Source of the DNA: Fervidobacterium thailandense | GTDB lineage: Bacteria; Thermotogota; Thermotogae; Thermotogales; Fervidobacteriaceae | Length of the DNA stretch: 38,431 nt | Assembly (NCBI RefSeq): GCF_001719065.1 | Contig: NZ_LWAF01000016.1 | Coordinates: 1 to 38,431, forward strand | Reading direction: 5' to 3' | In this document: in pieces, positions 1,294-27,921 of the stretch | Layout of the letters: each line of letters starts with the position of its first letter | Numbering within the stretch: the stretch's first letter is position 1 | Notes under the pieces: model-generated | Told to the model about the DNA's origin: nothing | The model's input: the letters and a program-made list of their open reading frames with translations, nothing else | The model's database searches: none | Program-made: the position numbers and the translations under genes

Positions 1294-3255
1294 ATGGACG
1301 ATAGGGAATACAGGGAGTACGTCGAGTACAGGCTTGATAGAGGTAAGATATCGGAACAGTCGGAAACGTTGGTTCCGGAGAAATTGAGATTTCTTGAAGA
1401 GCTCGATGAGGAGCAACGAGAAGCGGTACTGAACTCGAGTGGTCGAACGGTGGTAATCGCCGGCCCTGGAAGTGGTAAGACACGGGTAATCACGTATAAA
1501 ATAGCGTACCTGTTGCAAACGGGGATAAAACCCTCAGAAATCGTCTTGGTGACGTTCACCCGGGCTGCTGCCAAGGAGATGATCGAACGTGCACAACGCG
1601 TAACGAAGAAGGACCTCGGAGAGATGACTGCTGGTACGTTCCACCATGTGTGCAATGTTATCCTCCGACGGTACGGTAGCGTGATTGGGATAAGACCGAA
1701 CTTCACAATCCTTGACGAGTCGGATTCAAAAGACCTCATGAAAATTGTACGGGCGCGCTTTGCGACCTCAAAGCAGATGTCCAAGGCACTTCCCACAGTC
1801 GCCGAGTTGTATTCGTTACTTACATACTCAAACAACACGCTCCAAAGTCCTTACGAAGTTGTTTCTAAAAAGGCCAAACGGTGGCTTAATGTGGTGGACG
1901 TGATAGAAAGGATTTTCGAGGAGTATTCCCTTGAAAAAGATAAGCAAAATGTCCTCGACTACGACGATCTGCTACTTAAGACGCTGTATCTTTTGGAAAA
2001 CTATCCAGATATTCGTGAAAGGATAAGCTCCAAGTTCAGATGGATCCTCGTTGACGAATTTCAGGACACGAACATCGTTCAGTTGAAGATTGTCGAATTC
2101 CTCTCCCAGGTACACGGTAACATTTTCGTCGTTGCCGACGATGCCCAGAGCATTTATTCCTTCCGTGGGGCAAGGTTCGAAAACGTTAAGGAAATCATGA
2201 AAGGTGCGAATGTGTTTAAGATACAGACCAACTACAGGAGCACAGATAAAATCGTTGAGCTCGTGAACTCGATGATACCCAGCAGTTCGGTTCCAAAGCG
2301 TTTGAGGGCTGTACGCGTAGGTTCGCAAAAGCCAGTTATTGTCAACACGTACGATCACTTTGATGAAGCCAAGTTCGTTGCGCAGAGGATATTGGAGCAC
2401 GTTAACGAAGGAACGAGCTACGAAGATATAGCGGTTATCTACAGGGCACATTCGCACTCTCTGGAACTGCAAGTGGAACTTTCCAAACGGAACATACCCT
2501 TCCGCGTGCTTTCCGGACTCCGATTCACCGAAACAGCACACGCGAAAGATGTTATTGCTTTTCTAAAAGTGCTTCAAAATCCGTACGATGCGCTTTCTTG
2601 GATGCGTGTGCTAAAATTGCTTGAAAATGTGGGTGATGTAACCGCCGAGAAGATAGTCACGCAGTTACTGGAAAGTGAATCACCGATCGACACTTTGATG
2701 CAGCTTAGTGTTAAGAGCAACGATTTCTCGAATTTCAAAGAAATTGTGCTCTCAAGTCTTGGCAAGCAACCTTCCACGCAGATACGTAGATTCTACGAGG
2801 GATTCTATCAAATGTACCTTGAAACGCACTATCCTGATTTCCGTGACAGGGAAGAAGACGTGGAGCGACTGATCGAAATGGCCGAATTCTACGATACGAC
2901 TGAAGATTTCCTCAACGACATCACTGTTTCCGAAGATATAACACGAACCGGGATGGAAAAAGAAGAAGGTAAAGTTACGCTGACGACTGTTCACCAGGCC
3001 AAGGGGTTGGAATGGCGTGTGGTTTTCGTCATCGGTGTCAACCCAGGCGACTTTCCACACTTTCTTGCGGTTAAAGAGGGAAACCTCGACGAAGAGGAAC
3101 GCCTTTTTTACGTTGCCATAACGAGGGCAAAGGATTATCTGTACATAACCCACTCGCTCTTCTCCAGAAGAGACTACGGACCCTTCAACGAAATTCAACG
3201 TGATTTCATCGAGGACATTCCGAGATACCTTGTAGAATACTGGAGAGTTCGCTAA
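1294..3255 (+). CDS. UvrD/PcrA/Rep-type superfamily 1A DNA helicase
   Basis: This is a 653-residue ATP-dependent 3'-5' helicase with all SF1A motifs in order: Q motif and Walker A (AGPGSGKT, about residue 57), VTFTRAAAKEM, TAGTFHH, Walker B VDEFQDT (about 253-258), DDAQSIYSFRGA, NYRSTDKI, TTVHQAKGLEW and FYVAITRAKDYLYI. It is somewhat shorter than typical UvrD or PcrA (about 720) and lacks a long C-terminal tail. The family unwinds DNA in repair, replication restart and RecA-filament removal. I chose ATG 1294 because GAGAGGTG precedes it by about six bases. A TTG directly after the upstream stop (1255) would add 13 residues without a ribosome site. It probably shares a transcript with the phosphoesterase gene. 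UvrD, PcrA and Rep cannot be separated safely here. Confidence 0.9.
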   Translation: MDDREYREYVEYRLDRGKISEQSETLVPEKLRFLEELDEEQREAVLNSSGRTVVIAGPGSGKTRVITYKIAYLLQTGIKPSEIVLVTFTRAAAKEMIERAQRVTKKDLGEMTAGTFHHVCNVILRRYGSVIGIRPNFTILDESDSKDLMKIVRARFATSKQMSKALPTVAELYSLLTYSNNTLQSPYEVVSKKAKRWLNVVDVIERIFEEYSLEKDKQNVLDYDDLLLKTLYLLENYPDIRERISSKFRWILVDEFQDTNIVQLKIVEFLSQVHGNIFVVADDAQSIYSFRGARFENVKEIMKGANVFKIQTNYRSTDKIVELVNSMIPSSSVPKRLRAVRVGSQKPVIVNTYDHFDEAKFVAQRILEHVNEGTSYEDIAVIYRAHSHSLELQVELSKRNIPFRVLSGLRFTETAHAKDVIAFLKVLQNPYDALSWMRVLKLLENVGDVTAEKIVTQLLESESPIDTLMQLSVKSNDFSNFKEIVLSSLGKQPSTQIRRFYEGFYQMYLETHYPDFRDREEDVERLIEMAEFYDTTEDFLNDITVSEDITRTGMEKEEGKVTLTTVHQAKGLEWRVVFVIGVNPGDFPHFLAVKEGNLDEEERLFYVAITRAKDYLYITHSLFSRRDYGPFNEIQRDFIEDIPRYLVEYWRVR

Positions 3256-3281
3256 CGTGGGGGGTTAAGGAGGGGCAACCT

Positions 3282-3944
3282 ATGCCTGTCTCGAAGGAAG
3301 ATAAAAGTCGAGAAGAAAGACACGATAAAATTGATTCGAAGGATGAACGAAATTACCTTAGCGGTGGTCAAATTAATTGGAAAAACGAACATGCGCTGAT
3401 CGCCGCTCTGAAAAGAGGTGATGAGCAAGCTTTCAGGTACCTCTACAGGGTCTACGGTCCGAAGATCGGTGCACTCGCAAAAGGTTACTTGGGTGTTGAC
3501 GATGTGGATGATATTGTCCAGGATGTAATTCTTAAGGTCTTCAAAGGTGTGAAAAAGTTTCGGGAAGATGCAAAACTTTCCACGTGGATCTACAAGATAA
3601 CGATAAACGTGTGTAACAACGTCTACAAAAAGTTCAAACATCGGGAAACGCTGTTAGAATTGAACGATTCCTATGCAGAGAATGGTCATCAATCGCAGTA
3701 CTCAACAAACGAAGATCTCCAGAAAGCCGTTTTAGACGAGGTGCTTTACGAGAAGCTCAGAGATGCGATAGAAAAACTCTCACCCGAAGACAGGGCTATA
3801 CTTTACATGAAAGAAATAGAAAACTTAACCTACGAAGAGATTTCGGAAATTCTTGGAAAGCCGGTAGGTACGATCAAGAGTCGGTTACACTACGTAAAAG
3901 AAAGATTGAAAAAGGAACTCGAGGAGGAGTACGAAAATGAATGA
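3282..3944 (+). CDS. ECF-family RNA polymerase sigma factor
   Basis: The 220-residue protein shows sigma region 2 (ALKRGDEQAFRYLYRVYG, then DDVDDIVQDVILKVFKGVKKF and STWIYKITINVC) and, after a short linker, region 4 (LSPEDRAILYMKEIENLTYEEISEILGKPVGTIKSRLHY, written here without break only to show order of LSPEDRAIL, YEEISEILG and GTIKSRLHY). There is no region 1 or 3, which is the two-domain layout of extracytoplasmic-function sigma factors. The first 40 residues are an extra, highly charged extension. GGAGGGG lies ahead of ATG 3282. The gene overlaps the next ORF by 8 bases, so the two are likely translationally coupled. That suggests a sigma/anti-sigma pair controlling envelope genes, perhaps including omp-alpha further down the run. 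Confidence 0.9.
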   Translation: MPVSKEDKSREERHDKIDSKDERNYLSGGQINWKNEHALIAALKRGDEQAFRYLYRVYGPKIGALAKGYLGVDDVDDIVQDVILKVFKGVKKFREDAKLSTWIYKITINVCNNVYKKFKHRETLLELNDSYAENGHQSQYSTNEDLQKAVLDEVLYEKLRDAIEKLSPEDRAILYMKEIENLTYEEISEILGKPVGTIKSRLHYVKERLKKELEEEYENE

Positions 3945-4278
3945 GTTATTCGATGAAAAAACCTACAAAAAACTCGTAAAAATGTTTTATCTGAGGCTCG
4001 ACTATCGTCCAGGCCCTAACATGGAGGAGAAGATCCTAAGGGCTTTACGCCGCCGAAAAAGGAGAATGCTATTTTTCAAGGTCTCCATCGTAGTGCTTCT
4101 CGCTCTTATAGCTATCTGGCTTGGTCCATCGAGAACGAGGGATATTTTGAGCTCGGTTTTGGGAGACATCACCGAAGGCAAGCGAAATGAACAAGTCAAA
4201 GAGCAACAAGACATCGTGTTCGAGACTTTAAAGTACACGTCCGTTGCCAACGATGGCCATTGGTCGGAGAATTGGTAA
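3937..4278 (+). CDS. Small single-pass membrane protein, candidate anti-sigma factor
   Basis: The 113-residue protein has a basic cytoplasmic stretch (ALRRRKRRM) followed by one hydrophobic helix (about residues 46-62, FFKVSIVVLLALIAIWLG) and a hydrophilic tail of about 50 residues. By the positive-inside rule the N-terminus, about 45 residues, is cytoplasmic. Its start codon lies inside the end of the sigma factor gene, preceded by GAGGAGGAG. Position, size and topology fit an anti-sigma factor that holds the ECF sigma at the membrane. I see no zinc-binding HxxxCxxC motif, so this is not a ZAS-type anti-sigma. The role rests on context only; it could be an unrelated small membrane protein. 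Confidence 0.7.
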   Translation: MNELFDEKTYKKLVKMFYLRLDYRPGPNMEEKILRALRRRKRRMLFFKVSIVVLLALIAIWLGPSRTRDILSSVLGDITEGKRNEQVKEQQDIVFETLKYTSVANDGHWSENW

Positions 4279-4287
4279 AACACCGGA

Positions 4288-4304
4288 ACGATCCACTGGA
4301 TCGT
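4288..4304 (+). repeat. Short perfect inverted repeat between two envelope-operon genes
   Basis: ACGATCC (4288-4294) and GGATCGT (4298-4304) are exact reverse complements around ACT. The hairpin lies between the small membrane protein stop and the next gene's ribosome site. There is no T-tract after it, so termination is unlikely. It could stabilise or process the mRNA, or serve as a protein-binding site. Confidence 0.5.
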
Positions 4305-4323
4305 ATCCAAGAAGGGTGGTACA

Positions 4324-5055
4324 ATGAGAACAACGAACACTTCAAAGATTTCAGCGTTCTCTCTCATTTTTGTTCTACTTGGTGTACTCTCCTACGCGGA
4401 CGGTTATTACGTCCGCATGGTTTACGAAAGCGTTCGAGACAACGTTTCCTTAAGATACGAAGAGGTCTATGAACAAGGTGACACGAAGATTGTTTTCGTC
4501 ACAGCGAAAGATACTTTCACCTGGTTGAAGGTTGGAGACAGGTACTACGTTGGGAGCGGGAAAACGCTTTACAGAACCTTTCCCATAAAGGACCTGGAAG
4601 ATTTCGCCAGAGAATACCTGAAAGCCAGGCACGTGGAATTGAAGGATGGTATCTACAAATTCACCGAGCCAAATTTCTCACTCGAAATCGTTGTGTTGAA
4701 CTCCGAGATACTTAAGATCTCCAGAAAGGTTGGGGACGTAATCACAACGATGCACATCAGCAGATTCTCAAAAAATTTTGATATCCGCGAGATTATCTCG
4801 AAGTACCAAATTGTCGACAAGAGTCCCGTACCGGAAGAACTCTTCAGGATCTTCAATCTATTTCTATGGGCCACGGTTCAGGAAGAACGTCTGGACGTAC
4901 TCAAGATCGTTGGGTACGACAAGGATGGAAAGCTTGTTGAACTTGAGATAAACAAAACCGGTGGGGATTTTAAGATAAATAACTACTATCTAAAGATCAT
5001 AAAAGCCACCGAAAAGACCGTGAGGGATATTAAGGATGCGCTGCGCGGTAATTGA
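4324..5055 (+). CDS. Exported protein, RseB/LolA-like in character
   Basis: The 243-residue protein starts with a signal peptide (basic MRTTNTSK, then a hydrophobic SAFSLIFVLLGVLSYA core with a likely cut near SYA-DG). The mature part is rich in short beta-type segments (DTKIVFVTAKDTFTWLKVGDRYYVG, cited as the pieces TKIVFVTAKD and YYVGSGKTLYR), a pattern seen in periplasmic LolA/RseB folds that bind lipids or lipoproteins. I cannot show homology by eye. AAGGGTGG precedes the ATG. Lying directly after a sigma factor and a membrane regulator, it occupies the place of RseB/MucB in proteobacterial envelope-stress operons, so a sensor role is plausible but inferred. It ends 20 bases inside the following radical SAM gene. 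Confidence 0.7.
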   Translation: MRTTNTSKISAFSLIFVLLGVLSYADGYYVRMVYESVRDNVSLRYEEVYEQGDTKIVFVTAKDTFTWLKVGDRYYVGSGKTLYRTFPIKDLEDFAREYLKARHVELKDGIYKFTEPNFSLEIVVLNSEILKISRKVGDVITTMHISRFSKNFDIREIISKYQIVDKSPVPEELFRIFNLFLWATVQEERLDVLKIVGYDKDGKLVELEINKTGGDFKINNYYLKIIKATEKTVRDIKDALRGN

Positions 5056-6640
5056 CGGGTACGTTGACGAACCTGCCGTCCTCGGAGTTCCACCTTACAT
5101 TAGCACCTACGTTCGTTACGTTGCTGGTGCGTTTCTCTTGCGCGGTTACTCCGTCGATTACTTTACAATAGACCAAGTACGTACCAACGACCTTTGGAAC
5201 GCGTTCTCAGGTTACGACGTTCTTGTCGTTGTCGGTGGAGTCACCGTACCAGGTAGGTACGTCGGAGGAACTCCAGTATCTCCCCAAGAAGTTCAAAAGC
5301 TTTTCGAACTAAACCGCAAACCCTATAGAATAATCGTTGGAGCAATCGGCCGTGCGCACGCTGGTAGAGGTGGTAGTGTTGCAAAATCTTTCACCGATAA
5401 AGTGGAGTTTGAGGAATTCGTTGAAAATATACCACTTTGGTTCGATGAAAACGATTACTTTTCATCACTTCGTGCAATTTCACTGGCCGGTGCCGAGATT
5501 GTAAAACAGCACCCACGTTTTCCAAACGTGATCTGTGAGTTGGAAGTCTCGTTGGGGTGCGAGCGAAGGACATTTTGTACATTCTGCACCGAACCGATCC
5601 TACATCCGCGGTTTTTTTCAAGGCCGGTCAAAGATATTGTCGACGAGGTTAACGCTCTGTACAAAGTAGGGGTACGAGCTTTTAGACTTGGTAGAAGCGC
5701 GAACATCATTGCTTACGGTAGTGACTGGAACGGCGGAATTCCGAACGTAACTGCGTTGGAAGAGCTGTACACCGGTATCCGGGAGAGCTGTCCTGAGCTC
5801 CACGTTCTTCACACGGACAACGCCAACCCTGTCTACATCGCAAAACATCTGGAACTTTCAGCCAGAATAATCGAGACCATAGTTAAGCACAACACATCCG
5901 GTGATATTCTGTCCTTCGGAGTTGAGAGTTTCGATGAAACGGTACGAAAGAAAAACAACATTGACGGTGGTGTTTCTGAGGTAGATCTCGCGGTAAAAAT
6001 TGTCAACGAGATCGGAAGCGTACGTGACAAGGACGGGGTTCCAAAACTTTTGCCCGGGATAAACCTGATATTCGGGCTTTTCGGGGAAACGAAAAAGACC
6101 TACGAAACCAACTACCAAAAACTCCTTGAGTACCTGAATATGGGACTTTTACTCCGAAGAATTAACCTGCGCCAGATTATGATCTTCCCCGGTACCCCAC
6201 TTTACTACCTTGCCCAGAGGAAGACCATCAAAGTTGAGAAACGACTCTTTGAGCACTACAAACACCTTATCAGAACTAACGTGGACAATCCGATGCTGAA
6301 AAGGGTGTTTCCAATAGGCACGGTTATCAGAAACGTTATACCTGAGTACAGAGAGGGAAGAATTACCTTTGGGAGACCACTTGGCACCTACCCAATTCTT
6401 GTTGGGGTACCTGCGAACTTTGAAAAACCGGTGGATGTTGTGATAGTCGATCACGGCCAGCGCTCGGTAACGGCAGTCAGAAAGGCACCTCTCGAAGAAT
6501 TGACGCTCGAAGAATTAGAAAGCATCCCTGGCATTGGAAAAAAGAATGCATTGAGGATCAAAATGAAAGATTTCTCGGCACTCTCGGATTCGACAAAGGA
6601 ATTTATCAATAAATTTTTTCTTCCGCCAAGTGTGCGCTAG
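5036..6640 (+). CDS. Radical SAM protein with unusual CX5CX2C cluster motif and C-terminal helix-hairpin-helix
   Basis: This is a 534-residue protein. The N-terminal 160 residues resemble a Rossmann-like, B12-binding-type region (AVIDGYVDEPAVLGVPPYIS, then YDVLVVVGGVTVPG). The radical SAM core begins at SLGCERRTFCTFC, cysteines 175, 181 and 184. That spacing is CX5CX2C rather than the usual CX3CX2C; similar spacings are known in a few subfamilies. FGVESFDETV and INLIFGLFGET fit strands of the SAM barrel. A C-terminal helix-hairpin-helix (LEELESIPGIGKKNALRIK) suggests nucleic-acid contact, perhaps RNA modification. The start overlaps the upstream gene by 20 bases, with GAGGG nine bases ahead of the ATG. 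Substrate unknown. Confidence 0.85.
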   Translation: MRCAVIDGYVDEPAVLGVPPYISTYVRYVAGAFLLRGYSVDYFTIDQVRTNDLWNAFSGYDVLVVVGGVTVPGRYVGGTPVSPQEVQKLFELNRKPYRIIVGAIGRAHAGRGGSVAKSFTDKVEFEEFVENIPLWFDENDYFSSLRAISLAGAEIVKQHPRFPNVICELEVSLGCERRTFCTFCTEPILHPRFFSRPVKDIVDEVNALYKVGVRAFRLGRSANIIAYGSDWNGGIPNVTALEELYTGIRESCPELHVLHTDNANPVYIAKHLELSARIIETIVKHNTSGDILSFGVESFDETVRKKNNIDGGVSEVDLAVKIVNEIGSVRDKDGVPKLLPGINLIFGLFGETKKTYETNYQKLLEYLNMGLLLRRINLRQIMIFPGTPLYYLAQRKTIKVEKRLFEHYKHLIRTNVDNPMLKRVFPIGTVIRNVIPEYREGRITFGRPLGTYPILVGVPANFEKPVDVVIVDHGQRSVTAVRKAPLEELTLEELESIPGIGKKNALRIKMKDFSALSDSTKEFINKFFLPPSVR

Positions 6641-6679: not shown

Positions 6680-9235
6680 GTGCGCACCGATTCTTCAACC
6701 AACAACACATTTAAGAGCTTCATCTTCTTGTTGGTGATCTTAGTCTTACTTTTCTCGATTGCTTCAACGACTACCGCAGAAACGTACAAGGACGTGCCGG
6801 AAAACCACTGGGCGTACGAAGCTATCCAAATTTTGTCCCAGCTCGGTATCGTCGTTGGGTTTCCCGATGGTACGTTCCGAGGTAACGAATCCGTAACCAG
6901 GTACCAGATCGCGGTCCTTTTGTACCGGCTGTACAGCCTTCTTGACAGTCGAATCGAAACCTTAAAAACCCACGTTGAATCCTTGGAGCGTAAGTTTAAA
7001 CTCCCCTCAGCTCCTTCGCAACCCGGTGTGGAGCAATCTATTGCGCAGCTTAAACAAAACTACCAGCGTTTGGAGTCCGACCAGCGCGAACTGCGTACGA
7101 TGGTTACAAGCTTGGTAGAAAAACTAAAATCAACCGAGGGAGCACTAAAAGTGATCGAAGACGATCTTCGAAAGGTCGCACAGGAGTTGAACCAAAGGTA
7201 CGACAACATGAGAACACAGCTGGAGGAGTTGAGCTCAAAACTTAGAAATTTGAACGAATCGGTTGAGGTCCAAAGATCAATCATCGGAACTCTAAAGGAC
7301 GAATTAAGCCTTTTAACGGCAAACCTCGAATCGGTTGAACAGGTAAGGAGCGAGGTTGAAAAGGTTCTACAACAAATCACGGAATTCAACAAACGTCTGA
7401 GAGACATGGAAAGCTCCATAAAAGCTGTTGAGGAGGAAATTCAGCGTGATCGGATAACTGTGGAGGTTAAGCCCGAAAAACCGGAAGATTTGGAAGAGTA
7501 CGATCATGGAAAGTTCACGAACGAAATCAAGAAGCTCTGGGAAAAAATAGGCGACTTAAGTGCGAGAATCGGCTCGATAGAGTCTTCTCTTGCACATGTT
7601 CAACCCGAAAGAACCAACGAAGAGATAGAGCTAATCAAGAAAGAAATTACCACTTTAAAACAAGTTGTAGAGGTCCTTCTAACGACAAGCCAGTCTGATA
7701 CTGAAAGTAGGACTTCAGAAACTCCAGGCGTTACCACCGATTTTGGTAGCGTAATTGAGAGTATCAAAAGGCTCGAAGAGACCGTATCCGAGTTGTTGAA
7801 AAGTGCACGCCAACTCGTCACCAGGATCGAAAACGTAGAATCAAGACCACAAACAACGCAGGACCTTGAATCTTTAAGGTCAAAGTTGCGAGAACTGGAA
7901 ACGGAGATTCAGAAACGAGCAACCGTGAGCCAGTTCAACTCCTTGAATTTGAGCGTTCAGAAAGTTTTGAACTTGACATTACCGCTGATGGATGAAGTGG
8001 AAAACCTGAAAGCAAGACTCTCGGAGCTAAGAGAGAATCTGTCAGCGTTAGAAAGAAAGCTCAGCGAAATCCAAATATCCACCCAGCGTGCAGCAGTGGA
8101 AAAAATTAGTTCCCTGATACAACAAATTACCAGTTCCCAGGAGGATAAGATTAGTGCGCTAGCCCAAGCTGTGAAGGAGATGAGGGATGACTTGAACACG
8201 TTGAGAAAAGAAATTCAGAACCTTCACTCATCCCTCGAAAAAATCGAAAAATCGCCACTAAAACAGATCAGTCCGACGTCAGGTACACTTGACGTGCTCT
8301 ACAACTTCGAGTCTCTGGAAACTAATCTCAGAGAGATTACTCGAAAATTCGAAGAGCTCGCGGGAATTGTTGAAGCAACCGCCCTTGATTGTCAAAACGT
8401 CAAGGTTCAATTAACAGAGTACGGTGCGAGAATCGGAACCTTAGAACAAAAATCAATTCAGAACGCAAATTCGATAGCCGAAGTTATCAAAGCGGTTTCG
8501 GAACTCATCACGGAACAAAGGATACTCTTTGAACGGATTTCATCACTCGAGACACGGGTTTCTGGGGGCGAGAAAAAACTGGAAGCTATCGCAGTAGAGC
8601 TGGATAATCAACAAATTACATTTTCACGAAAAATAGAGGAGGAAAAGCTCAGAATCGACAAAGAATTGAGCATTGTGTACGAACATCTTCGCTCCTTGGA
8701 AAACACCAATAAGAACGTTCTTGAAAAGCTTCAAAATCACGATAATTCGCTTGCTGATCATCGAAATGTCTTGACCCAACTTCAGGATCTAACTTCGCTT
8801 CAATACGCCCGCGTGAATCAATATATCGGGATGCTTGAAAAGCGCATTGAAAGCAACGAACTCAGCGTGGAATCACTCAGAACGGAGACCAGGTCGGAAT
8901 TGGAAGCGCTGAAAAGGGACGTGGAAGTTTTAAAGCCCGTTCTTCAAACTCATGACGATAGACTAAGTATCCTTGAATCAACCACCTCCATGCTCTCAAA
9001 GAAGCTCGACTCACTCAACGTTGAAATGGACATCCAGAGGGAAACTGTTCGTAAAGAATTAAGTCGCGTAGAAGAAGAACTCAAGTCGGCGCAGGAAGTG
9101 AGAATAAACGATCTTGGAAAAGAACTGAATAAAAAAATTGAGACTCTCAAGACCGAGAACAGGAATCTGATGATTTGGGCGCTTGTAATTTCCCTCTTAG
9201 CCCTTGGACTTTCCATCTACGCGATTTTTAAATAA
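6680..9235 (+). CDS. Omp-alpha-like envelope anchor protein: SLH domain, long coiled coil, C-terminal membrane anchor
   Basis: The 851-residue protein has a signal peptide (residues 1-35, with core SFIFLLVILVLLFSIAST), one SLH module (about 37-90: YKDVPENHWAYEAI, GIVVGFPDGTFRGNESVTR), then roughly 730 residues of heptad-rich, charged coiled coil. It ends in a hydrophobic segment, NLMIWALVISLLALGLSIYAIFK. This architecture matches Omp-alpha of Thermotogae, a rod that spans the periplasm and ties the outer sheath ('toga') to the cell wall, with SLH on peptidoglycan or its polymers and the tail in the outer membrane. It is about twice as long as the roughly 400-residue Thermotoga version. The start is GTG at 6680, with CAAGGGGG upstream. 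It ends the plus-strand run before a strong terminator. Confidence 0.85.
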   Translation: MRTDSSTNNTFKSFIFLLVILVLLFSIASTTTAETYKDVPENHWAYEAIQILSQLGIVVGFPDGTFRGNESVTRYQIAVLLYRLYSLLDSRIETLKTHVESLERKFKLPSAPSQPGVEQSIAQLKQNYQRLESDQRELRTMVTSLVEKLKSTEGALKVIEDDLRKVAQELNQRYDNMRTQLEELSSKLRNLNESVEVQRSIIGTLKDELSLLTANLESVEQVRSEVEKVLQQITEFNKRLRDMESSIKAVEEEIQRDRITVEVKPEKPEDLEEYDHGKFTNEIKKLWEKIGDLSARIGSIESSLAHVQPERTNEEIELIKKEITTLKQVVEVLLTTSQSDTESRTSETPGVTTDFGSVIESIKRLEETVSELLKSARQLVTRIENVESRPQTTQDLESLRSKLRELETEIQKRATVSQFNSLNLSVQKVLNLTLPLMDEVENLKARLSELRENLSALERKLSEIQISTQRAAVEKISSLIQQITSSQEDKISALAQAVKEMRDDLNTLRKEIQNLHSSLEKIEKSPLKQISPTSGTLDVLYNFESLETNLREITRKFEELAGIVEATALDCQNVKVQLTEYGARIGTLEQKSIQNANSIAEVIKAVSELITEQRILFERISSLETRVSGGEKKLEAIAVELDNQQITFSRKIEEEKLRIDKELSIVYEHLRSLENTNKNVLEKLQNHDNSLADHRNVLTQLQDLTSLQYARVNQYIGMLEKRIESNELSVESLRTETRSELEALKRDVEVLKPVLQTHDDRLSILESTTSMLSKKLDSLNVEMDIQRETVRKELSRVEEELKSAQEVRINDLGKELNKKIETLKTENRNLMIWALVISLLALGLSIYAIFK

Positions 9236-13557: not shown

Positions 13558-13584
13558 TTATCACTCTTGACAGTTGAGTGCTAA
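13558..13584 (+). promoter_or_regulatory. CIRCE element (HrcA operator)
   Basis: TTATCACTC (13558-13566), nine bases, then GAGTGCTAA (13576-13584). The CIRCE consensus is TTAGCACTC-N9-GAGTGCTAA, so the right arm is perfect, the left has one mismatch, and the spacer is the canonical nine. HrcA binds CIRCE and represses heat-shock genes. The -35 hexamer of the downstream promoter lies within the spacer, so bound HrcA would exclude RNA polymerase. HrcA itself is not in the window. Confidence 0.88.
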
Positions 13585-13595
13585 TTAGGTATAAT
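13567..13595 (+). promoter_or_regulatory. Near-consensus sigma-A promoter of the KaiC-like / Clp operon
   Basis: TTGACA at 13567-13572 and TATAAT at 13590-13595 are both perfect hexamers with an optimal 17-base spacer. This would be very strong when not repressed, which is usual for a promoter under HrcA control. Confidence 0.9.
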
Positions 13596-13632
13596 ATTGT
13601 TGCAAGCTGGTGTGGGAAGGGGGGAAGTAGGT

Positions 13633-14520
13633 ATGGCAGAAAGGGTTGAAAAGAGCGAGGTTCAAAACAATCAGTCGGCTTACCAACAACAGTACCAGCC
13701 GCTCAAGGAAGCCGTTCTGGTCGGTAGTGAGACGATCCTGAGAGCCCCAAAACTTGTTGGCGTTCCAACCGGTGTTGAAGGGCTTGACGGATTGTTCTAC
13801 ACAACGGAAATGACGCAAGAAGGGCCACGGAAAGTTTCGTTGGGTGGGATTCCGAAGTACGGAATCTTCAACCTTACCGGAGTTTCCGATACGGGCAAAA
13901 GTCTAATAGCCGAACAATTTGCCGTTAAACAAGCTTCCCGAGGGGAAAGTGTCATTTTTGTCACAGTCGAATCACCCGCAGAATTCGTGGTCATGGGAAT
14001 AAAGCAACGTGCCCAGGCAATGGGTATCGATTTCGAAGAAATAAAGGACAAAATAATATTCATCGACGTTGCGTCATACTCTTCGCTTCGAGACAACCTG
14101 GCCGAGTTCTTCGCCACCCTGGCTTACGCTATCAAGACGTACAAGGCCGAGTACACTGTCGTAGACTCGATCACCGGGTTGTTCGAGGAGAGGGAAGTTG
14201 CGGCAAGAATCGTCGTTCGAAAGGTCTTTTCGTTCCTGAAGAAGTGGAAGCAAACGGCTCTGCTAATTTCCCAGAAGAGAAGCGGACACGAAGAGTTAAC
14301 GGCCGAGGCGGCTGGTGGATACGCGGTTGGGCACATCGTCGATGGCACGTTCGTCGTCGCGAAGGAGTTGGTCGACACACCTTACAAAGCGAAGATGTAC
14401 AAGGTCGAAGTAGGGGATGTTGTAAGGTTCTTCAGGATCGACGGTTGCAGACTCACCGGACACGATACGAAGTTGCACAGAATGGAGATAACCGAGACCG
14501 GATTAGTTAGAATTCTTTAA
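13633..14520 (+). CDS. KaiC/RecA-like ATPase
   Basis: The 295-residue protein has the RecA/KaiC core: PTGVEGLDGL (residues 45-54, the KaiC-type lead-in), Walker A GVSDTGKS (83-90), a glutamate in VTVESP (E113) at the position of the catalytic base in this superfamily, and Walker B YTVVDS (174-179). It lacks the lon-protease domain and zinc finger of RadA and the DNA-binding tail of RecA. An extra glutamine-rich N-terminus of 40 residues precedes the core. KaiC-like single-domain ATPases act in signalling or as assembly motors. The start at 13633 has GGAAGGGGGG upstream; earlier in-frame starts fall on the promoter. It is the first gene of the CIRCE operon, 33 bases before the next. Specific function unknown. 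Confidence 0.82.
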   Translation: MAERVEKSEVQNNQSAYQQQYQPLKEAVLVGSETILRAPKLVGVPTGVEGLDGLFYTTEMTQEGPRKVSLGGIPKYGIFNLTGVSDTGKSLIAEQFAVKQASRGESVIFVTVESPAEFVVMGIKQRAQAMGIDFEEIKDKIIFIDVASYSSLRDNLAEFFATLAYAIKTYKAEYTVVDSITGLFEEREVAARIVVRKVFSFLKKWKQTALLISQKRSGHEELTAEAAGGYAVGHIVDGTFVVAKELVDTPYKAKMYKVEVGDVVRFFRIDGCRLTGHDTKLHRMEITETGLVRIL

Positions 14521-14553: not shown

Positions 14554-15291
14554 ATGGTGGTCGTGAAACCGGTATCAGAACCGATCGAAGAGATAGTTGC
14601 AGAGATTGTTAACAGGTGTATTGAACTTGTGGGAGGTTTTGAGGGACTTCTAAAATACGACAATCTGACGTGGGTTACTTCGCTCGTTAGGAGCGCTTAC
14701 GCCGTGGTTCTGAAGCACGAGCTAAACAAAACAACCGAGGAAATCGCTAAAATTCTTGGAATAACAAAGAATACCGCAAAAGAGATTTTGGAAGCTAAGG
14801 AGGAGAAGGTTAGAGAACTTATCTCAAAAGGTGAGTTGCAAAGTATAGAGGAACTGGACACTCACATAGCCGGTGCGCTCGCAAAGATTGCTTACAAGCA
14901 ACTGAAAAGTGAAGGTGACCGGAAAATCGAAAGAATAGTTAGGAACGTGTTCAACATCGCTATAAACATCCTGGGAGGTTACAAGCGAATTGGTGAACTC
15001 AAGTTCCTAACTTGGTTACCTTCACTGGTCAGAGCTATTTACGCGGTAGTTCTGAAAAACGAACAAAACGTCACCGATGAAGAACTTACCACCAAACTTG
15101 GAATTTCGGATGTTACCTTGAAGAAGATCCTCGAAGCGGACCCAACGGAACTTGAACAGAGGTTATCCGAACTGTACGACTTCGACAACGATGATGACGA
15201 ATCAAAACACGAATCGAAGATACACATCGCCGGTGCCATCGCTAAAAGGGCTTACGAAGCGTTTAGAGAAAAACAGTTACGTGAACAATAA
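14554..15291 (+). CDS. Internally duplicated protein with two helix-turn-helix-like repeats
   Basis: The 245-residue protein consists of two clearly related repeats of about 105 residues (roughly 14-119 and 128-240). Each has an LTW-x2-SLVR-x2-YAVVLK-x-E segment (38-56 and 152-171), a helix-turn-helix-like [21 protein letters not shown] or [21 protein letters not shown] (about 61-81 and 175-195), and an HIAGA-x-AK-x-AY segment (104-114, 224-234). The order helix bundle plus helix-turn-helix in two tandem copies recalls the cyclin folds of archaeal TFB/TFIIB, but this is inference. I do not recognise the family. GGGGGG precedes the ATG. It lies between the KaiC-like ATPase and the Clp ATPase, 33 and 29 bases away, so co-transcription is very likely. 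Confidence 0.8.
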
Positions 15292-15320
15292 AAAATAATA
15301 TTATGAAAGGAGTTGATAGT

Positions 15321-17543
15321 ATGATGTTCAACATGGAAGACTTCACCGAAGGGGCGCAGGAGATACTGACGTCCGTCAACGATGTTTTGACCCGTTACAG
15401 ACACAACCAGCTTTCTCCAGAGCACATACTTTTGACGATGTTGGAGAACCAGAAAAACGCAGCTGTAGACATCTTGAACCATCTTGGTGTTGACCTTGAA
15501 GGTTTGAAACGCGACGTGGAGCGCGTACTCTCTTCGAAGGGAACCTACTACTATGCAGGAACATCCGGCGGTTCCGGGCAAATGTACATAACACCGGATG
15601 CGACCAAGATTATCAACGAAGCCAAGCGGGAAGCCAGACGTATGGGCGATGAAAAAGTCGGAACAGACCATCTATTGCTGGCCATGATACTCGTACCGGA
15701 AACGACAACGTACAGGTTACTCGCAAAGTACGGTGTCTCACCGGACAAGGTCTACAAGGCCATAAAGGATCTCAGGATGCAGCGCACGTACACCGAAGAG
15801 GAAAACATTGATGTCCTTGCCAAGTTTACTGAGAACCTCACGGAAATGGCAAAAAACGGACAGTTGATGCCCGTTGTGGGTCGTGAGAAGGAAGTTAACC
15901 GGATGATAGAAATCCTCGGCAGGAAGATAAAGAACAACCCGGTTCTCATCGGTGATCCCGGTGTTGGTAAGACGGCGATAGTGGAAGGTCTTGCGCAGAG
16001 AATAGTTGCCGGGAACGTTCCAGACTTCCTAAAAGGAAAGACAATATTAAAACTCGACCTTGCCAGACTCGTAGCTGGAACTAAGTTCAGAGGAGAATTC
16101 GAAGAAAGACTCAAAAAACTCGTCGATGTTCTGAAGAAACGTTCGGATGTAATTCTCTTCATCGATGAACTACACACCGTCGTTGGTGCGGGAGCGGCTG
16201 AGGGTGCGCTTGATGCCGGCAACATACTCAAACCCGAGCTTGCAAGGGGCACGATGCGTGTTATCGGTGCGACGACGGTGGAAGAGTACAGAAAGTACAT
16301 TGAAAAGGATAAGGCACTCGCAAGAAGGTTCCAGGTCATCTTTGTTGCAGAACCATCGGTCGAAGAAACCGTTGAAATTCTCAAAGGACTCAAACCGAAG
16401 TTTGAGGAGTTCCACGGAGTTAAAATCAGCGAAAGGGCACTCGAGTTTGCCGCTAAAATGTCCGCCCGGTATATAACCGACAGGTATCTGCCAGACAAAG
16501 CCGTAGACTTGATCGACGAAGCGGCCGCAAGATGCAAGATTGACGGAAAACAGATGGTCGAAGAGGAGGACGTTGCAAAAGTCATAGAAAGATGGACGGG
16601 AATCCCCGTTGGAAAGATGATGCAGGATGAGAAGGAGAAACTCAAGAGGTTGGAGGAGATAATCCACGAAAAGTTCGTCGACCAGGAAGAAGCGGTAAAA
16701 GTTGTTGCCAACGCAATCAAGATGTCCAGGGCCGGTATCAGGAATCCGAACAGACCTCTGGGTGTGTTCCTGTTCCTCGGACCCACAGGTGTTGGTAAAA
16801 CCGAGCTTGCAAAGAGACTTGCGGACGTACTGTTCGGTACAGAGAAGGCGCTCATACGTATCGACATGAGTGAGTACATGGAGAAACACTCTGTTGCGAG
16901 GTTGATCGGTGCACCTCCGGGCTACGTGGGTTACGAAGAAGGTGGATACCTCACCGAGCAGGTCAGAAGGAGACCGTACAGCGTTATACTCTTTGATGAG
17001 ATAGAAAAGGCACACCCGGAAGTTTTCAACGTACTTTTGCAACTGTTCGACGACGGTAGGTTGACCGACGGAAAGGGTAACACCGTGGATTTCAAGAACA
17101 CGATTATCATAATGACCAGTAACATCGGCTCTGAAGTGATCATCCAAGATATCGAGGAAGGCTTCGAGGACATGATACCAAAACACATCGAAGAGGAAAT
17201 GCGCAAGTACTTCAGACCGGAACTGATTAACAGAATCGACGCAGCGGTTGTCTTCAAGCCACTGAAGAAAGAACATATCAAACAGATTGTCAGAATTTAC
17301 TTGAGCGAGCTAAACAACAGGCTCAAAGATAAGAACATCGTTGTGGAAATTGATGAGAGTATGATGGAGTATTTGGCAACGGAAGGTTACGTACCGACGA
17401 TGGGAGCAAGACCTCTGAGGAGGTTGTTCGAAAACACTGTGGAGTTTAAGATAGCGGAGTTGATTATCAACGATCAACTCAGAGAGGGTCAAAAGATAAC
17501 ATTCTCCTGGACCGACGAGGGATTGCAGTGGAAGATTGAATAA
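15321..17543 (+). CDS. Hsp100/Clp AAA+ ATPase (ClpB/ClpC-like) lacking the middle domain
   Basis: The 740-residue protein has a Clp N-terminal repeat domain (1-145), D1 with Walker A GDPGVGKT (211-218), pore loop [13 protein letters not shown] and Walker [13 protein letters not shown], and D2 with Walker A GPTGVGKT (487-494), [15 protein letters not shown], pore loop [13 protein letters not shown] and sensor region [10 protein letters not shown]. Sequence style is ClpB-like, yet between DEAAARCKI and [14 protein letters not shown] there are about 12 residues where ClpB carries a middle coiled coil of roughly 120 and ClpC a shorter one. I also see no clear IGF/IGL ClpP-docking tripeptide. It unfolds or disaggregates proteins with ATP. 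The start after AAAGGAG at 15321 is preferred to 15303, and CIRCE control upstream fits a heat-shock role. Confidence 0.9.
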
Positions 17544-17573
17544 TCGATCAAACGACCAGTACGAAATACGGTG

Positions 17574-17605
17574 AAGGCCGACCGCAACAAACGGTCGGCC
17601 TTTTT
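17574..17605 (+). terminator. Rho-independent terminator of the CIRCE operon
   Basis: AAGGCCGACCG (17574-17584) pairs perfectly with CGGTCGGCCTT (17592-17602) around a seven-base loop, followed by further T residues. It lies 30 bases after the Clp stop codon, before the convergent queD gene. Confidence 0.92.
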
Positions 17606-26927: not shown

Positions 26928-27317
26928 TTACTTAATTTCAACCTCTCCGCCGGCTTCCGCAATTTTCTTCTTGATTTCCTCAGCCTCTTCCTTCTTAACG
27001 CCCTGTTTGATAAACGCGTCCGGAGCACCAGCTTTTTCAACGAGGTCTTTAGCTTCTTTCAGACCAAGTCCGGTGATTTCCCTGACAACTTTGATAACTT
27101 CTACCTTCTTCTGACCGAAGCTCTTAAGAAGCACGTCGAACGTGTCCTTTTCCTCAGCTGCCGCTGCTGCTGGAGCTGCCGCCGCTGCAACTGGCATCGC
27201 TGCCATAACTGGAGCTGCTGCGCTGACTCCGAATCTTTCTTCGAGCATCTTAACAAGTTCCGCAAGTTCCGCAACCGTCAATGACTCAATAGCTTTTACA
27301 AGTTCTTCCAACGTCAT
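26928..27317 (-). CDS. rplL: 50S ribosomal protein L7/L12
   Basis: The 129-residue protein has the L12 N-terminal dimerisation helix pair ([21 protein letters not shown]), an alanine-rich hinge (about 39-61, with [13 protein letters not shown]), and the factor-binding C-terminal domain with [19 protein letters not shown] and [11 protein letters not shown], ending in GGEVEIK. It binds L10 and recruits translational GTPases. ATG 27317 is preceded by GGAGGTG with ideal spacing; the frame extends six codons further without biological support. It lies 58 bases after rplJ in the same transcript. Confidence 0.97.
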
Positions 27318-27375
27318 AGTCACACCTCCGTACATGGATTTTTACATGCTGTTACCGAACCAAAATACCGAAAGA

Positions 27376-27921
27376 TTACTGACCTTCCTTCTTTTCCTTA
27401 ATCGCGTTAAGCACATAAAGCATATTTCTCATGACGCCTGCAAGCACGTTGACAAATCCGCGTATCGGGGCTTGGATACCACCAACGACCATCGCAAGGA
27501 GTTGTTCTCTCGACGGAAGTTTGGAGAGTTCCTCGAGTTGTTCTCCCGAGAAGAACTTTCTTTCAAGGTAGATCCCCTTACAAACTGGTGTTCCCTTGTT
27601 CTCCTTGATGAAGTTGTGCAGTATTTTGATGGCCTCCACAGGATCCCCTTGTGTGACGTACAGCACCGCCGTTGGCCCGAAGAAAACTTTCTCGGCTGCC
27701 GCAACGTCGTATTCGGCGTTTCTGAGGGCCATCTTCAGGAGTGTGTTCTTTACAACCTGGAGTTTTGCACCACTGCCCATCTTTTCGCGTAGCGATCTTC
27801 TGAGTTTGGTCATTTGGGCAACCGTCAACCCCGTGAAATCGGTGAAGAGTACAAGTGAAGAGTTCTTGAACGTTTCCGTCAATTCCTGAACCAGTTTCTC
27901 TTTTTCAGGTCTTCTGAGCAC
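27376..27921 (-). CDS. rplJ: 50S ribosomal protein L10
   Basis: The 181-residue protein matches L10: EKLVQELTETFKNSSLVLFTDFTGLTVAQM, broken here into EKLVQELTETF, SLVLFTDFTGLTV and KLRRSLRE, then VVKNTLLKMAL, the PTAVLYVTQGDPV strand, and the C-terminal helix (NVLAGVMRNMLYVLNAI) that docks L12 dimers. It is the base of the ribosomal stalk. The start is GTG 27921 with GGAGGTG upstream. The gene heads the rplJ-rplL-rpoB-rpoC operon and follows a structured leader with a terminator. rplK-rplA-nusG-secE, its neighbours in many bacteria, are absent here; a penicillin-binding protein gene lies upstream instead. Confidence 0.97.
   Translation of the reverse strand: MLRRPEKEKLVQELTETFKNSSLVLFTDFTGLTVAQMTKLRRSLREKMGSGAKLQVVKNTLLKMALRNAEYDVAAAEKVFFGPTAVLYVTQGDPVEAIKILHNFIKENKGTPVCKGIYLERKFFSGEQLEELSKLPSREQLLAMVVGGIQAPIRGFVNVLAGVMRNMLYVLNAIKEKKEGQ

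Follow-up and report, generated by a model that had tools for sequence, protein, structure and literature searches.

KaiC proteins are members of the RecA superfamily, and reverse gyrase, the enzyme that overwinds DNA, is a hallmark of life at high temperature. TFIIB and TFB, the transcription factors to which the protein described below has been likened, begin with an N-terminal zinc ribbon of Cys pairs. According to the accessible text of the report concerned, the KaiC-domain protein PF1931 and the predicted regulator PF1932 of P. furiosus are heat-shock-induced targets of Phr (PMC10746257). Similarly, the available portion of a study on Nautilia profundicola describes a more than 100-fold induction of its reverse gyrase gene (rgy) at 20 degrees over the optimum (PMC2628731). 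In a comparison of phyletic vectors, likewise available in part, reverse gyrase came nearest to hyperthermophily, and COG0467 (RecA-superfamily ATPases implicated in signal transduction) figures in the ranked table of the same paper (PMC2670198). The accessible sections of three further papers (PMC6878951, PMC10653856 and PMC11946384) contain nothing on KaiC. A link between reverse gyrase and KaiC is not drawn in the accessible text of the searched literature, which is thin on subscription journals, and older comparative-genomics reports may exist; no bacterial accessory system for reverse gyrase is reported in the same literature.

The window analysed here is the whole stretch of 38,431 nucleotides that makes up contig NZ_LWAF01000016.1 of Fervidobacterium thailandense. 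It contains a gene for a 245-residue protein, here called P0001, which lies between genes for a KaiC-family ATPase and a ClpC-type protein:

13558..13584, + strand: predicted CIRCE-like operator, TTATCACTC-N9-GAGTGCTAA, 1 mismatch of 18 against the CIRCE consensus
13567..13595, + strand: predicted sigma-70-type promoter, TTGACA-17-TATAAT, 12/12 matches, overlapped by the CIRCE-like site
13633..14520, + strand: KaiC-family ATPase, single domain, TIGR03878 thermo_KaiC_2 (E 1.5e-122)
14554..15291, + strand: P0001, tandem near_KaiC protein, an ORF of 245 aa
14584..14913, + strand: repeat 1 of P0001, one near_KaiC domain, residues 11-120
14734..14790, + strand: predicted helix-turn-helix (HTH) of repeat 1, residues about 61-79 (HTH_10 over cut-off, and AlphaFold model)
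14926..15273, + strand: repeat 2 of P0001, one near_KaiC domain, residues 125-240
15076..15135, + strand: predicted HTH of repeat 2, residues about 175-194 (AlphaFold models)
15303..17543, + strand: ClpC-type AAA+ protease subunit (Pfam), third gene of the apparent operon, the order being kept in G001, the other genome of the genus
17573..17603, + strand: terminator-like hairpin, 12 pairs and a T tract, at the end of the apparent operon

Elsewhere the window encodes an ECF-type sigma factor (3282-3944; PF04542, PF08281), two ORFs of 243 and 216 aa with no Pfam match at E<=1e-5 (4324-5055 and 27142-27792), and a predicted secreted protein (6680-9235) in which an N-terminal SLH domain, a very long coiled coil and a C-terminal membrane segment can be made out by eye.

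By profile comparison, P0001 consists of TIGR03879 near_KaiC_dom twice in tandem, a domain that is catalogued in NCBIfam as a 'probable regulatory domain' and is otherwise uncharacterised. The whole protein scores 163.1 bits against this model in two stretches, and the repeats taken singly score 91.0 and 79.3 bits, all above the cut-off of 65.1. The two tandem repeats pointed out in the preliminary description are real: 49 of 110 aligned residues (44.5%) are identical between residues 11-120 and 125-240, and the BLOSUM62 local score of one repeat against the other is 190, against a mean of 30.8 (sd 5.5, maximum 56) for 1000 shuffles of repeat 2. The motifs LTW..SLVR..YAVVLK, LGI...T.K.ILEA and HIAGA.AK.AY, by which they had been recognized, occur in both copies. 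The same description called the protein unknown and suggested a profile search for homologues; that search gave a clear match to TIGR03879, whose name already places the domain near KaiC, so that the protein belongs to a catalogued family while its function is, as far as we have seen, uncharacterised. The accession itself is absent from the papers covered by a full-text literature search.

An HTH had been expected near the end of each repeat, but the models place it in the middle (residues ~61-79 and ~175-194), with about 40 residues after each, including the helix that carries HIAGA.AK.AY. Of the two, only the HTH of repeat 1 is matched by PF04967 HTH_10 (30.6 bits, cut-off 23.1). A sigma-70 region 4 profile matches 66 of the 68 aligned near_KaiC members at E<=1; this likeness is confined to the HTH, and a sigma factor of the type III-E CRISPR kind was rejected, NF041236 scoring 25.6 bits against a cut-off of 100. 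We also discarded an assignment to defence systems, for which PADLOC returned one weak match (E 0.006), and a phage origin: no relative was confirmed in viral contigs, and the PHROG matches, for the most part HTH regulators and sigma factors, were of low strength. P0001 probably binds DNA through one or both of its predicted HTHs. The protein is acidic (pI 5.4), as is the HTH of repeat 2, which makes DNA binding by this repeat less likely; the second copy may instead contact KaiC.

The resemblance to TFIIB and cyclin folds proposed in the preliminary description would mean that P0001 is a TFIIB-like factor in bacteria, built of two cyclin repeats. We addressed this fold with two AlphaFold models, Foldseek, VIA, Pfam, PDB sequence searches and hhalign, the AlphaFold alignments drawing on 66 or 67 fragments from the best 80 of 260 near_KaiC loci. 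The whole-chain model reached a mean pLDDT of 84.9 and a pTM of 0.55 (68 sequences; in its trial alignment the homologues landed on repeat 2 only), and the model of repeat 2 alone a pLDDT of 88.1 and a pTM of 0.83 (69 sequences). The repeat 2 fragment is all helical in the model (helices at 2-21, 25-29, 36-53, 57-64, 68-75, 79-90 and 98-126), and the near_KaiC domain is accordingly predicted to be a helical domain with a central helix-turn-helix. With the whole model, 28 of 50 VIA rows are TFIIB/Brf or cyclins, the best being yeast TFIIB at Z 5.4 (82 residues, 3.5 A), and hhalign against six haloarchaeal TFBs sets the P0001 HTH in register with the second TFB repeat, though over the HTH only (35-36 columns, probability 9.6 and 39%). 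Against this, the better single-repeat model has its best VIA match in a Rel enzyme (Z 5.0, 98 residues, 4.8 A); TFIIB accounts for 3 of its 50 rows and cyclins for none, TFIIB being tied with TrpR, DeoR, DnaA and phycobiliproteins, and many of the rows are phycobiliproteins, that is, helical look-alikes. When both repeats are superposed on TFIIB or Brf, the deviation is 11.7-14.2 A over 132-157 residues in the low-confidence whole-chain model; the Pfam TFIIB profile (E 0.023) stays under its cut-off (15.1 bits versus 23.6), and P0001, with a single Cys in 245 residues, is missing the zinc ribbon. Foldseek found nothing at E<=0.001 in the PDB for either model, nor in BFVD. Thus, of the original proposal a two-copy HTH protein stands, while the structure prediction and fold search yielded no decisive match to TFB/TFIIB or to any other solved fold, and a cyclin fold is not established (Z at most 5.4). 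We did not adopt it, and regard a TFIIB-like factor as very improbable.

TIGR03879 is found in 33 of 103 Thermotogota genomes, over the cut-off in 31, and only those of the window (G000) and its congener G001 encode two over-cut-off domains in one frame; the tandem form is hence present in both genomes of the window's genus. A search of genome contigs with P0001 alone as query found no relative, and one with a single-domain alignment recovered 260, of which the best 80 were analysed. At all 80 of these loci the homologue has one near_KaiC domain (own profile, E<1e-3). The single-domain proteins have three architectures, namely a short form of ~125-150 aa, a long form of ~220 aa with an extra C-terminal domain, and a Thermotoga-type form, 'B', with a different C-terminal tail. 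The extra domain, of ~85 residues, is conserved (L048:5001-5636, L050:2936-3583 and L084:3240-3890) with the pattern IPWAY..LK..KG..YPI....LK..L.G..IKG....E......YPIKNPA.LL..IK, and it has no Pfam match over the cut-off, only a 20-residue match to MTH865 below it. Seven Aquificota genomes (G148, G150 and G684-G688) hold second, more diverged TIGR03879 copies of 62-95 bits besides the main one. Among 14 named control genomes, to which the archaeal evidence is confined, TIGR03879 is over the cut-off in Thermus composti, Thermotoga maritima and Methanocaldococcus jannaschii.

The ATPase gene upstream ends 33 nt before P0001. Its product scores 407.9 bits against TIGR03878 (cut-off 232.2) and has an intact Walker A motif (GVSDTGKS); the circ_KaiC model gives it 45.7 bits against a cut-off of 546.25. 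The reading frame is open from a TTG at 13597, but the ATG at 13633 is the likelier start because the TTG lies only 2 nt past the -10 hexamer. In the wider family KaiC adjoins near_KaiC on the same strand at 51 of the best 80 of 260 loci and is missing from the stretch at 28; TIGR03878 is held elsewhere in the genome in all 11 whole genomes searched from among these 28. At one locus, on the 918-kb megaplasmid of Thermomicrobium roseum, the KaiC and near_KaiC reading frames have 4 nt in common (L135:5096-6375). At 20 of the best 80 of 260 loci, mostly of Aquificaceae (L045-L049, L053 and others), near_KaiC lies apart from KaiC and the gene after it belongs to a TamB-domain cluster, an identity tested in L048. 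Among the Thermotogota, TIGR03878 is over the cut-off in 11 genomes, exactly those whose TIGR03879 match is of the 90-residue type A, whereas in the 20 type-B genomes the KaiC relatives are below that cut-off, and both of those examined have TIGR03877 members. No genome of the 103 has types A and B both over the cut-off, so that the two pairs look interchangeable. P0001 is thus almost certainly partnered with the neighbouring KaiC ATPase. Of the DNA-binding partner of KaiC suggested in the preliminary description, the HTH protein and the partnership are supported, and DNA binding is a likely property of the former.

KaiC, P0001 and clpC are separated by 33 and 11 nt and appear to make up one operon, preceded by a predicted sigma-70 promoter and a predicted CIRCE heat-shock operator. 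The CIRCE-like site is the sole match in the window at <=3 mismatches, for which 0.01 are expected. A one-mismatch CIRCE-like operator also precedes KaiC in G001, where clpC again comes after the near_KaiC gene. Three of the seven genomes of genus g7 that have the pair show such a site before their type-B KaiC gene, at 2, 2 and 3 mismatches (loci L025, L030/L154 and L031). All sites at <=3 mismatches in the 969,735 bases fetched sit at KaiC promoters of this kind (loci overlap in this set, and repeated rows represent one site), and three shuffles gave zero sites at <=2 mismatches and two with 3. Upstream stretches of 21 reverse gyrase genes and of 14 KaiC genes, with the window as the 15th, were scanned for CIRCE and read by eye; no such site was present before the 21 reverse gyrase genes at <=4 mismatches, nor at the best 80 of 260 near_KaiC loci at <=3. 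The order KaiC-P0001-ClpC in both genomes of the genus, and the single promoter in the window, could also be taken to mean that here the pair serves the ClpC protease as adaptor or regulator. As ClpC lies beside the pair at none of the other loci scanned, the link with ClpC is not the general function of the family, and we give this alternative only a slim chance for the genus.

The near_KaiC family, which is met mostly in thermophilic bacteria, co-occurs with reverse gyrase in four phyla. In the Thermotogota reverse gyrase is present in 27 of 31 genomes with near_KaiC (4 with near_KaiC only, 4 with reverse gyrase only and 68 with neither; one-sided Fisher 1.7e-16), in the Campylobacterota in 10 of 10 (0, 3 and 236; 1.4e-15), in the Thermodesulfobacteriota in 13 of 15 (2, 0 and 232; 7.1e-20), and in the Aquificota in 110 of 116 (6, 14 and 6; 0.0025), values which ignore shared ancestry and the incompleteness of many draft genomes. 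For the Thermotogota both families had to be over their cut-offs; elsewhere the thresholds were E<=1e-10 for near_KaiC and E<=1e-110 for reverse gyrase. At the latter threshold, reverse gyrase is present in 41 of the genomes tested for 50 of the best 80 near_KaiC loci; among the nine without a match, one (G134, locus L077) contains part of a reverse gyrase gene where a contig ends. The two families also covary inside genera: in g5, G005 and G011 have both and G008 and G014 neither, and in g12 G044 has both and G039 and G041 neither. There are exceptions on either side, including four genomes of genus g2, which belongs to the window's family, with reverse gyrase and without near_KaiC. Of the 14 control genomes, Thermus composti, T. 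maritima, M. jannaschii and Sulfolobus acidocaldarius have reverse gyrase over the cut-off. Thermus plasmids gave no near_KaiC match, though those of Thermus thermophilus carry reverse gyrase; on one of them, pTT27 of strain HB8 (L136, 2258-7351), genes for a response regulator and an ATP-binding protein precede rgy in place of a KaiC pair.

The association extends to gene neighborhoods. In some Aquificota and Campylobacterota the long homologues are followed by a gene of ~1,100 codons which is reverse gyrase (Pfam domains zf_Rg, DEAD, Toprim and Topoisom_bac in L075), and the reverse gyrase cluster comes after near_KaiC at 11 of the best 80 of 260 loci. The order KaiC - near_KaiC - reverse gyrase is seen in Campylobacterota and some Aquificota; in G165, of the Campylobacterota, rgy begins at the base immediately following the near_KaiC stop codon. 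The order reverse gyrase - KaiC - near_KaiC is found, from coordinates, in six Thermotogota genomes (g3 and g5), and in G003, where the genes were read, rgy (2072-5170), KaiC (5157-5885) and near_KaiC (5882-6310 of L174) overlap. Linkage is seen in 5 of the 10 Campylobacterota genomes with both genes. The two genes lie within 2.5 kb of each other in 12 of 16 Aquificota, 11 in the same orientation and G135 divergent, a figure that is no rate, these 16 genomes having been picked with linkage in mind. Near_KaiC can therefore adjoin reverse gyrase in three of the four phyla. The pair in G003 consists of type B and KaiC_1, and that in G165 of type A and KaiC_2; these differing gene orders and subfamilies argue for at least two independent linkages to reverse gyrase. 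In the window's own genome, reverse gyrase is on another contig (G000:C10).

The co-occurrence might be a consequence of temperature, since the presence of reverse gyrase in its own right marks life in the heat. The pair might be a sensor of thermal stress in general, or a regulator of transcription, with reverse gyrase merely co-retained by lineages living in hot places. The predicted CIRCE control and the clpC operon do point to general heat shock, near_KaiC occurs without reverse gyrase in four Thermotogota genomes (G047, G055, G060 and G085), and PF1931 and PF1932 of P. furiosus, the latter a possible relative of the family, are heat-shock-induced according to the accessible text (PMC10746257). 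It is harder to reconcile with this the gene linkage to reverse gyrase, in two orders and with two KaiC/near_KaiC subfamilies, and the covariation inside g5 and g12. We consider such a general sensor possible, if on the unlikely side. It is also conceivable that the pair forms a module for chromosome organisation or DNA repair, P0001 acting like ParB or DnaA to tether a RecA-fold ATPase to DNA, independently of transcription. KaiC lies within the RecA superfamily, the structure comparison returned weak matches to DnaA domain IV (Z 4.5-5.0) and to ParB, and an SMC-family gene (PF02463, tested in L052) is directly downstream of near_KaiC at 6 of the best 80 of 260 loci, all Thermodesulfobacteriota (L050, L051, L052, L059, L060 and L063). 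Yet no fold match is decisive, generic HTH families score equally, and the CIRCE/ClpC setting suggests regulation; a module of this kind appears rather improbable to us.

The reading that we prefer, to which we would give an even chance, is that P0001 is the DNA-binding half, in the form of a single-chain dimer, of a regulator that is driven by KaiC, linked to heat and connected with reverse gyrase. Through the tandem duplication, one chain has both putative DNA-binding units, whereas relatives with a single copy would need to dimerise to combine two. Together with ClpC, the ATPase and P0001 would be co-produced from one CIRCE-controlled heat-shock promoter, and ATP binding and hydrolysis by a KaiC ring would switch P0001 on and off DNA. 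The module might thereby tune DNA topology, or its heat response, in concert with reverse gyrase, acting on rgy expression or on DNA topology. More speculatively, KaiC-near_KaiC pairs at large could be a dedicated accessory of reverse gyrase, a heat-induced ATP-driven DNA-binding switch controlling its expression or where and when positive supercoils form, with KaiC_2/type A and KaiC_1/type B interchanging between lineages and the single-chain dimer arising in the window's genus; this generalization we hold only tentatively and, on balance, doubt. If the association is functional, reverse gyrase gains an identified pair of partners, open to testing and centred on a clock-type ATPase of the KaiC family, and families which NCBI lists as 'probable regulatory domain' and 'KaiC domain-containing protein' acquire a role. 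As a natural two-domain, single-chain version, P0001 would ease structural and DNA-binding work.

Among known systems, P0001 is closest to the TIGR03879 family, with which it shares both over-cut-off repeats and a gene adjoining that of a KaiC-family ATPase; it differs in having two domains per chain in place of the one in all other homologues examined, and the name of the model mentions neither reverse gyrase nor heat shock. Unlike circadian KaiC, a double-domain protein acting with KaiA and KaiB, the neighbour of P0001 has a single KaiC domain, and it belongs to TIGR03878 thermo_KaiC_2, in contrast to the TIGR03877 thermo_KaiC_1 partner of the parallel Thermotoga-type pair (two genomes). P0001 resembles archaeal TFB and TFIIB in its HTH, which over 35-36 columns aligns in register with their second cyclin repeat, but P0001 has one Cys and no zinc ribbon, no full-length repeat match, and a different inter-repeat arrangement in the low-confidence whole-chain model. 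The operon resembles those under CIRCE/HrcA heat-shock control in its one-mismatch operator on a perfect sigma-70 promoter and in its clpC protease gene, and differs from them in carrying a KaiC ATPase and its HTH partner, which to our knowledge have not been counted among the members of the CIRCE regulon. Finally, P0001 is not homologous to reverse gyrase (rgy, TIGR01054), but the latter is the genomic companion of the near_KaiC family in four phyla, at times within the same operon.
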